A stretch of 57,997 nt of DNA from Sedimenticola selenatireducens DSM 17993 (GTDB taxonomy: Bacteria; Pseudomonadota; Gammaproteobacteria; Chromatiales; Chromatiaceae): contig NZ_ATZE01000010.1 of assembly GCF_000428045.1 (NCBI RefSeq), positions 173,984-231,980 on the forward strand, written 5' to 3'. The notes under the pieces are model-generated. The model searched no databases. It saw only the letters and a list, made by a program, of their open reading frames with translations, and was not told the origin of the DNA. Shown piece by piece: positions 40,551 through 55,595 of the stretch. Position numbers and translations under genes: made by a program. How positions within the stretch are numbered: position 1 is the first letter of the stretch; each line of letters opens with the position of its first letter.

Positions 40551-41378
40551 TCAGGGCAGGTCACTGCGTCTGAAGTGAAGAAATCCCAACGCCGCACAAA
40601 CCGTACCCACCAGAACAGGATAAAGCAATGCGTAGGCGATATATCCAACCTGGCCGAAAACATCCAGAATCACATACGCAGAAGGTCCCAACAGAACCAG
40701 CTGCGGATCGAATAGCATCATGGTCGCCGTACGAAACACCTGCATCGGGTTAACCAGCGCAATGGCGACGGCTGTTTCAGCCGGCAGATGCTCCTGAATC
40801 AGGATGCCGAGCAGGATCAGGTCAAGAAACAGTAACAACGTCAGCCAGACCACGAAGGCGGCACCTTGAGCCACATCCGAACTGCGCGCCAGCGTGGAGA
40901 TCAGCATGCCGATACCGAGAAAGCACCAGGCCAACGCCATCAGCAGGCCGGTGTAATAGATAAACAGGTCCCACGGAACATTGACGCCCTTGATAGTACC
41001 CCAGATGACCGCGCCAACCATGGCCAGCAACACCGGCAAGAACACCACCAGGAAACGCCCGAAAATCTTGCCCCAGAACCAGGCAGCCAGGCTGATCGGC
41101 AGGGACAAAAGATACTCAAATACGCCCGCTTCTCGATCCCCGGCGACCGACCGGACCGTTGTGATCAATACAAACACCGGAAGAATCGCCATGGATATCT
41201 GAATATAGGTAAGCAACAGCCTGGAGAGTCCGGTGAAACCCATGATGCGGGACTCAGCCAGGCCATAGGCGAACAGCACCACAACCAGGCCACCAAAGAC
41301 CAGGGTATAGACCATGAACCAGCGCGCCCGCAGTGACTCGACGATGTCGGCGTAAGCAGTTAACCAGAGATGTTTCAT
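40551..41378 (-). CDS. nosY: ABC transporter permease NosY
   Basis: The membrane part of the NosFY(D) ABC complex needed for CuZ maturation, thought to supply sulfur or copper to the periplasm. The 275-aa protein has six hydrophobic spans and an ABC-2-type pattern (VFVLITTVRSVAGDREAGVFEYLLSLPIS, AWCFLGIGMLISTLARSSDVAQGAAFVVWL). The ATG overlaps the stop of a micro-ORF (ATGA) and follows GGGAGGTG. It lies downstream of nosL and the two duplicated micro-ORFs. Confidence 0.93.
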   Translation of the reverse strand: MKHLWLTAYADIVESLRARWFMVYTLVFGGLVVVLFAYGLAESRIMGFTGLSRLLLTYIQISMAILPVFVLITTVRSVAGDREAGVFEYLLSLPISLAAWFWGKIFGRFLVVFLPVLLAMVGAVIWGTIKGVNVPWDLFIYYTGLLMALAWCFLGIGMLISTLARSSDVAQGAAFVVWLTLLLFLDLILLGILIQEHLPAETAVAIALVNPMQVFRTATMMLFDPQLVLLGPSAYVILDVFGQVGYIAYALLYPVLVGTVCAALGFLHFRRSDLP

Positions 41379-41500
41379 GCAACACCTCCCTCGGCAACCA
41401 CTCCCTGCGTTGCTCTACCTCCTGCATCCATGCAGTCGTGTGCCACACTCTGTCGAGCGGCCTGTGGCCGTGAAAATTGTCTATCCTGCCAATTTTTCAT
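41375..41500 (-). CDS. Micro-ORF 2 of the nosL-nosY junction, 41 aa
   Basis: It starts MKNWQDRQFSRPQAARQSVA, identical in its first 20 residues to micro-ORF 1, then continues HDCMDAGGR to GGVA. A GGGAGGTG ribosome binding site stands 5-12 nt before the ATG, and its stop overlaps the nosY start (ATGA). It overlaps micro-ORF 1 in the same manner. No membrane span or known motif is seen. It may be a genuine small protein or a translational-coupling device for nosY. Confidence 0.5.
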   Translation of the reverse strand: MKNWQDRQFSRPQAARQSVAHDCMDAGGRATQGVVAEGGVA

Positions 41501-41574
41501 GCGGCACCTCCCTGTGCCACACTCTGTCGAGCGGCCTGCGGCCGTGAAAATTGTCTATCCTGCCAATTTTTCAT
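41429..41574. repeat. 74-bp tandem duplication between nosL and nosY
   Basis: On the minus strand two copies begin at 41574 and 41500. They agree over about 62 nt with one mismatch, and the GGGAGGTG + ATGAAA junction is also repeated in front of nosY. The duplication gives two ribosome binding sites and two start codons in series. Confidence 0.9.
41497..41574 (-). CDS. Micro-ORF 1 of the nosL-nosY junction, 25 aa
   Basis: A 25-codon frame whose ATG overlaps the nosL stop (ATGA) and whose stop overlaps the start of micro-ORF 2 in the same way. It was created by a 74-bp tandem duplication. Within the first 60 nt the two copies differ at one base, a silent CCG/CCA change in a Pro codon. The peptide is polar and slightly basic (MKNWQDRQFSRP...), with no signal peptide. 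Confidence 0.5.
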   Translation of the reverse strand: MKNWQDRQFSRPQAARQSVAQGGAA

Positions 41575-42125
41575 TGATGGGTCTCACCCGCATTGTGATT
41601 ATGGGAATCGGGACTATCCGGCTGGCGCTGGTCCTGACGCTCCTCGAGGCGTCTCAACAGATCCACACCATGGAGATTGAAGCGCTCCTCGACGGCAAAA
41701 ATATGCGCCTTGGCCTGGGCAAAATCGAGCCCGCCTTCAGCGGGTGCATCCTGAGCCCCCAGGCCGTACTCCATGGGAGTGACATCGCCCTTGATATAGG
41801 TCGCATTCCTGGCATCGATCCAGCCACTGCCGTTCCGGTCCGTTACCCAGATCTGTGTCTTCGGGTCATCTTTCCAGGGTTTGTCCTCAAGCCAGATGAG
41901 CGCGCAGCCGATGTCATCAAACTTCAGCAGCCTGGAGCGCTTTTTATCGGCAGGAAAATAACGGACCTGTGCGGCGTGATTGCGATCACTGAGCACCATC
42001 CGGCAACGTTCGCAGGCATCCCGGTCCCACTTGACATCGGCCGGACCGCTGCCCGGGTCACCGCCGCAGGCGGTTAACAGTAGCAGCAATACCCCTGACA
42101 GCAGCAGGATAAAACGGTCAGTCAT
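41571..42125 (-). CDS. nosL: Copper-binding lipoprotein NosL
   Basis: An outer-periplasm Cu(I) metallochaperone for NosZ maturation. The 184-aa protein has a lipobox (LLLLLTAC, Cys20) and the metal site in RDACERCRMVLSDRNHAAQV (CxxCxM), followed by the FDDIGCALIWLE and GWIDARNATYI segments of NosL. The C-terminus is His-rich (SPDSHNHNAGETHQ) and could bind further copper. Its start overlaps the nosF stop by 8 nt, and its stop overlaps micro-ORF 1. Confidence 0.95.
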   Translation of the reverse strand: MTDRFILLLSGVLLLLLTACGGDPGSGPADVKWDRDACERCRMVLSDRNHAAQVRYFPADKKRSRLLKFDDIGCALIWLEDKPWKDDPKTQIWVTDRNGSGWIDARNATYIKGDVTPMEYGLGAQDAPAEGGLDFAQAKAHIFAVEERFNLHGVDLLRRLEERQDQRQPDSPDSHNHNAGETHQ

Positions 42126-55230: not shown

Positions 55231-55595
55231 CCCGGCAGAGAAAGCAGCAGTAGGTCGCGTTAGCCGCAGGCGTAACCCGACAGCCGGGGCTCATGACCAC
55301 GGCGCAGCCGGCCAAATTATTCGGCGGATTACGCTGCGCTAATCCGCCCTACGGCGATGAAACATGAAGTAGTGCAGATCGCATTAACCGAAAGGCGTAA
55401 CCCGACAGCCGGGACTCATGACCACAGCGCAGCCGGCCAAAATATTCGTCGGATTACGCTGCGCTAATCCGCCCTACGGCGATGAGTCATGAAATGGTGT
55501 AGGTCGCGCTAGCCGAAAGGCGTAACCCGACAGTCGGGACTCACGGCCACAGCGCAGCCGGCCGATATCTGTATTCAGTTGCTGATCGGACTCTA
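55207..55595. repeat. 23-bp direct repeat that includes the rapA and GGDEF-EAL gene ends
   Basis: 55207-55229 at the 3' end of rapA and 55573-55595 agree in 22 of 23 positions (core GTTGCTGATCGGACTCTA, exact). The second copy supplies the stop codon of the convergent GGDEF-EAL gene. The repeats bracket the REP array. Confidence 0.8.
55250..55563. repeat. Tandem array of inverted REP pairs (BIME-like), 2.5 units of 124-125 bp
   Basis: Units begin at 55250, 55374 and 55499; the third is cut short near 55563. Each full unit holds a forward TAGGTCGCGTTAGC...GCGTAACCCGAC element and an inverse GGATTACGCTGCGCTAATCCGCCCTAC element, separated by CAGCGCAGCCGGCC-type spacer. The same family occurs at 38599-38628. 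There are no conserved short repeats with unique spacers, so it is not a CRISPR array. No gene lies in this 362-nt gap. Confidence 0.85.

Follow-up and report, generated by a model that had tools for sequence, protein, structure and literature searches.

The two small reading frames between nosL and nosY of Sedimenticola selenatireducens DSM 17993 are, quite probably, tandem copies of a dispersed, structured repeat that sits at stop/start overlaps and start codons and would keep neighboring genes coupled through an in-frame relay. We found them in a 57,997-nucleotide stretch of contig NZ_ATZE01000010.1 (hereafter the window). Start-type copies of the repeat occupy ATGA sites, which are either stop/start overlaps or ATGA start codons. 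On our best reading of the sequences, the micro-ORF units would represent the start-type (MKNW) subfamily of a wider gammaproteobacterial family of four-hairpin repeats. Both the coupling through this element and its mobility we infer from sequence comparison.

Two micro-ORFs between nosL and nosY

All features of this junction lie on the minus strand. The nosL gene (41571–42125; its Pfam NosL match of 21.5 bits falls slightly under the cut-off of 24) ends in a TGA inside a first ATGA (41574–41571). This ATGA opens unit 1 of the element and micro-ORF1 (41497–41574; 25 codons, MKNWQDRQFSRPQAARQSVAQGGAA), which scores 101.9 bits against R1, a covariance model built from 11 units with unit 1 among them. 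Unit 2 and micro-ORF2 follow (41375–41500; 126 nt, 41 codons, 76.4 bits), and the micro-ORF2 stop is overlapped by the start codon of nosY, an ABC-2 type permease gene (40551–41378). As the original prediction described, the arrangement is a tandem duplication; our comparison gives a 62-nt repeat with 98% identity at a spacing of 74 nt. The first 20 residues of the two micro-ORFs are identical (MKNWQDRQFSRPQAARQSVA), and the sole difference in the first 60 nt is silent (CCG/CCA). The same prediction held for the junctions: at nosL-ORF1, ORF1-ORF2 and ORF2-nosY alike, stop and start share one ATGA, as in ATGA-coupled gene pairs. It also held for GGGAGGTG, which lies upstream of both ORF2 (41512–41505) and nosY (41390–41383) as the putative ribosome-binding site of each.

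The last hairpin of unit 1 (41500–41521, UGUGGCAC-AGGGAG-GUGCCGCA) comprises helices 4 and 5 of the covariation analysis below. Its loop and 3' arm hold the Shine-Dalgarno (SD)-like sequence, and its stem takes in the A of the next AUG. Micro-ORF2 is longer than micro-ORF1 because a 48-nt module (41391–41438) is nested in the last hairpin of unit 2, with the frame kept. Partly similar sequence occurs at further places of the same genome, and the module peptide HDCMDAGGRA(T/M)QG was found again at the hypD, crp, E2 and cca loci. The module itself is a hairpin with CATGGATG, followed by AGGAGGT. Another kind of tandem repeat, 125 bp in 2.4 copies, is present in the window at 55268–55563.

Dispersal within and beyond Sedimenticola

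A 78-nt stretch matches 12 places at nine loci in its own genome (E < 1e-10), with a unit length of about 74 nt and one ATGA shared between tandem copies. At every one of the nine loci a long downstream frame begins in the last ATGA, and at five of them the first ATGA holds the stop of the upstream gene. The neighboring genes are unrelated (prfA, cca, 2-oxoacid dehydrogenase E2 and others). A pattern search with GGGAKGTGNNGCATGA gave 11 occurrences in the genome, and the reversed pattern gave none. Rfam had no match in the window at the gathering score, nor at 41340–41620 with E up to 5, and on 12 relative loci it returned tRNAs only. Pfam had no match for the micro-ORF peptides. Searches for a phage or plasmid origin yielded no match, as did viral contigs searched with one exact pattern, and in the titles and abstract openings of one open-access literature library we found nothing describing the element.

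These copies bear directly on the suggestion that the micro-ORFs encode a small protein of N2O reductase maturation. A NosY match was present in 46 of 142 genomes, and among the 30 NosY loci that we read (L210 and L219 do not show the junction) the element fills nosL-nosY in three, all of them Sedimenticola: two units in G000, one in G006 and a decayed copy in G003. A 22.6-bit remnant lies in G001, and the site is empty in G002, G007 and G008. The unit is present at 19 other Sedimenticola junctions of unrelated function. We rejected an N2O-specific small protein because the element is rare at nosL-nosY and common at unrelated junctions. The alternative offered with it, a relay that tunes NosY translation, survives as a translational relay, given the preserved ATGA chains, and fails as a nos-specific device, the relay being a property of a dispersed element. 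The tandem copy looks recent, as S. hydrogenitrophicus has one copy at nosL-nosY.

Of 55 genomes (own included), 20 had an R1 match; all nine Sedimenticola genomes belong to the 20, and four of the nine carry a single match. In a draw of 369 members of the class (own included), 32 had a match at E up to 1e-8. Two Rheinheimera genomes hold the same start-type subfamily, again at gene starts. Their 41 matches include 11 (<=40.3 bits) without a locus, which were left out; the 21 loci comprise eight start-type arrays at four loci, 12 of the other type and one unplaced. The start-type loci are rlmM, a DUF6691 gene, ynbE and gspM, with the upstream stop inside the first ATGA only at gspM. The gene upstream of ynbE is inferred from its position to be ydbH, and its stop lies 5 nt ahead of the first ATGA. 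At the ynbE locus of one of the two genomes, a truncated second unit is fused to a lipoprotein frame; here (L099, ~7043) the truncated unit replaces, in frame, the N-terminus that the ynbE-like lipoprotein has in the other species. The genomes are drafts, and site classes derive from open frames together with Pfam for 19 flanking proteins.

The wider four-hairpin family is mostly extragenic. We read 82 outgroup copies and kept 71, dropping ten near-identical copies from G231 (two others were kept) and one from G213. Only six of the 71 sit at coupled junctions (L270, L271, L279, L294, L298 and L317), and 65 do not. L271 and L298 are different family units that each occupy the stop/start junction between abiEi-like and abiEii genes; the two genomes come from different families of gammaproteobacteria. 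In three of the dropped G231 copies (L297, L302 and L304) the last ATGA opens a frame of at least 100 codons without an upstream stop, and L309, L312 and L334, counted as non-junction, likewise open frames of at least 100 codons there. Nearly all MKNW-type copies in Sedimenticola sit at gene starts, unlike copies of the other type in these genomes.

Filled and empty sites

Comparison of orthologous junctions revealed sites with and without the element. At hemA-prfA, two genomes have a plain ATGA overlap (G001 and G003) and four have TAAATGA (G002, G004, G007 and G008), with one unit in G006 and G005 and two in G000. At hypC-hypD, five genomes show the plain overlap, G006 carries one unit, and G001 carries one unit with the 48-nt module. 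For the single units at these two junctions the change is exact, X-ATGA-Y becoming X-ATGA-(70 nt)-ATGA-Y. The element is present at one of seven rsmA loci, where there is no exact empty site because the upstream sequence differs. Copy number differs among close relatives.

These patterns allow a bolder interpretation, which we hold tentatively, as a possibility somewhat short of probable: the element would be a mobile sequence of a new kind, directed at stop/start overlaps and at start codons and equipped with its own translation relay, and it would have spread between the distant gammaproteobacteria Sedimenticola and Rheinheimera. Its relay parts would be an AUG, a short frame, a hairpin-gated SD and a UGA-AUG, so that operons could be interrupted without breaking, and often with retuning of, their coupling. 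A single-strand (Y1/HUH-type) transposase, with ATGA as the left target in addition to the element's own right end, would account for the absence of terminal inverted repeats, the end hairpins, the tetranucleotide at both ends and the head-to-tail arrays, and Y1 transposase matches are present in all nine Sedimenticola genomes. However, at 30 loci covered out of 47 such matches, R1 exceeded 20 bits in the vicinity of L233 alone, and that match (31.7 bits) is not of the ATGA type. An association with Y1 transposases is not supported by these loci, and we consider this route rather doubtful.

Reading frame and position of the copies

Of 46 decidable Sedimenticola MKNW-type arrays, 42, at 20 loci and with decayed copies included, have a frame from the first ATG, or a chain of ATGA-linked frames, that leads precisely into a downstream frame of 88 codons or more. 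L133, with a premature TAG, and L140, out of frame, also end at a gene start, bringing the arrays that end at a downstream frame to 44 of 46. One further locus (the 21st, L117 with L130) leads to no gene. L123 and L124, at contig edges, were left out of the phase count, and the Sedimenticola matches classified are those of ~33 bits or more. Tandem arrays are joined as stop/start relays or as fusions via a 4-nt linker, both in phase. By comparison, the non-junction relatives are mostly out of phase (12/65 in phase, an approximate figure with copy ends set by the model). Net length changes, scored by eye, keep phase in 10 of 13 cases (p ~0.002 at an expectation of one in three; the 75-nt form was entered once and the 4-nt linker left out), the exceptions being L140, L294 and L317. 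Of these, L317 and L294 are two of the six outgroup junction copies and depart from the clean pattern: L317 forms an in-frame fusion with the downstream gene, and in L294 the frame continues beyond the unit's terminal ATGA before it couples. Several old copies lack the last hairpin yet retain the frame, and in L146, L147 and L157 the peptide and hairpins are lost and the frame is kept. Examples of altered peptides in old copies with an intact frame are MNNRQALQFSRPEADGQDVTGGVGA and MRNWQDRQSSRTQGTAKGGGA.

To compare position with a background, we counted loci instead of copies, grouping 20 loci by downstream protein, by eye, with the L117/L130 locus outside the set. At 8 of 20 independent loci an upstream frame ends in the first ATGA and a downstream frame begins in the last. 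In flanking Sedimenticola DNA, 20 of 1269 ATGA join two frames in this way (p ~4e-10), with upstream and downstream frames each of at least 100 codons. This excludes a doubtful upstream frame of 115 codons at L116, which would make the figure 9/20. At the remaining 12 loci the first ATGA contains no clear stop of an upstream gene, and the element may serve there as a start-codon leader only. Copy counts and p-values ignore relatedness, since many copies are orthologous or derived from one another.

Could position and frame arise without any benefit? A neutral sequence might insert at any ATGA, be purged inside genes and survive at stop/start overlaps, the relay being incidental. The unit has ATGA at both ends, so that tandem copies and frame come along, and the variable copy number among close relatives would fit as well. 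However, ATGA in non-coding DNA should then be tolerated, and yet start-type arrays are nearly all at starts (the 44 of 46 above), unlike the extragenic copies of these genomes. The frame that stays open in decayed copies and the enrichment of GGAGG (below) also argue against neutrality, which leaves it an unlikely account.

Fold, covariation and ribosome-binding sites

The units tile into four hairpins. In the last one, an SD-like GGGAKGTG extends from the loop into the 3' arm, and the stem takes in the A of the next AUG. The fold z-score was -2.13 for 41497–41580, but -0.67 for 41513–41574 alone. Unit 2 of the window has an interrupted last hairpin, and its region shows no more folding than shuffled sequence does (z -0.58). 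Across the 11 units of the own genome, both sides had changed in 7 of 26 pairs (11 cells) and 0/500 shuffles reached either value, a signal that rests on few lineages, as four of the seven pairs come from two related second units (L020 and L021). Pairing was found in 93.7% of cells and fell to 33–47% in registers slid by 1–3, although the structure was drawn from one of the sequences, which favours the true register. Further pair types were not above shuffles (124/500).

Of 35 start-type units, 13 contain GGAGG and 22 are without it, compared with 2 of 65 non-junction relatives that contain it (p ~1e-5); it is present in 3 of 6 outgroup junction copies versus the same 2 of 65 (p ~0.003); these p-values ignore the relatedness of copies. 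The 35 units are the 78-nt copies only, 29 from Sedimenticola and six from Rheinheimera.

The covariation, and the fact that the wider family lies mostly away from coupled junctions, would suit an element that acts mainly as an RNA or DNA structure, such as an mRNA stabiliser or terminator, with translation incidental. Such a function does not require orientation and exact stop/start fusion at gene starts, and old copies lose hairpins but keep the frame, making this reading improbable. That the 25–41-residue peptides are functional small proteins is highly improbable: MKNWQDRQFS(R/Q)P(Q/K)AA is common to Sedimenticola and Rheinheimera and unpaired third codon positions are more variable (0.78 vs 0.30–0.38 bits; 8 vs 13 columns), but hairpin arms account for most of the conserved letters, the peptide has been lost from old copies that keep the frame, no Pfam match exists, and the third-position excess was not counted as protein-level selection because the same variable loop base varies in non-coding relatives too.

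A model for the relay

In the relay that we favor, ribosomes can probably still pass from gene to gene across the element. A ribosome ending the upstream gene would restart on the element's AUG and translate about 25 codons, and would thereby open the last hairpin, where the SD and the next AUG lie. The same ribosome would then restart, or a new one start, on the downstream gene. The element would in this way keep, and probably retune, translational coupling, and the micro-ORF peptide would be a by-product of translation.

We compared the element with known systems. Like REP/BIME sequences (RAYT, Y1), it is a short palindromic repeat with many dispersed copies, structured, sometimes in tandem and with a fixed tetranucleotide at its end. 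It differs in having four hairpins in 74 nt, ATGA stop/start sites, and a relay frame with an SD, and the 30 Y1 loci gave no clear flanking transposase. REPs are described as carrying GTAG/CGTC tags at one end (PMC3733652); these tags are absent from the unit ends, which are ATGA. Nor does an inverted pair bound the unit, as it would in a MITE, within 40900–42100; the ends pair inside their own hairpins. Enterobacterial RU-1/2/3, like the element, are small mobile repeats whose frames fuse to genes, but the available part of that report describes no stop/start relay or ribosome site for them (PMC2759123). In sulfur-oxidising Beggiatoaceae, dispersed TAACTGA direct repeats lie just 5' of start codons (PMC4679880), but they are 7 nt long, place stops in every frame and bear little resemblance to an SD.

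Coupling itself has precedents. In the axe-txe leader minigene, translation of a short frame raises that of the next cistron in cis, and deletion of the whole minigene region increased downstream expression by 30% (PMC8708949); unlike the element, the minigene has two codons and is not a dispersed repeat. Experiments in E. coli and Haloferax addressed termination-reinitiation coupling at overlapping pairs, among which ydbH/ynbE of E. coli showed strong coupling with an essential SD; for E. coli, the authors' explanation is that local structure hides the downstream start (PMC6728339). Modular synthetic translational couplers also exist (PMC11602170). Natural ATGA coupling and synthetic couplers, as described there, share stop/start coupling with the element but are not insertion elements. 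The element places an overlapping pair at each end, and its SD lies within a hairpin, which a ribosome translating the short frame would open.

Coupling would be expected to break when a sequence inserts at a stop/start overlap. In this case the reading chain stays intact, at central operon sites that include hemA-prfA, hypC-hypD, E1-E2 and nosL-nosY and the positions before cca and gspM. The filled and empty species pairs could serve as natural material for testing how reinitiation tunes protein ratios, and the units as a naturally occurring collection of coupling cassettes. Caution is due with small ORFs at such junctions, which may be the cargo of a repeat and not new small proteins.

Surroundings of the non-junction relatives

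By eye, 11 of the 65 non-junction relatives lie between TTCGA and ATCC, as if inserted in tRNA T-loop sequence (among them L266, L273, L275, L278, L280, L281, L283, L285, L308 and L333), and tRNA genes are close to some copies in other relative loci. At L165 (G042, 2043–2458), three non-start-type copies stand in tandem with a repeated stretch resembling a tRNA 3' end, an array that we take to be reminiscent of the E. coli rtT repeats.
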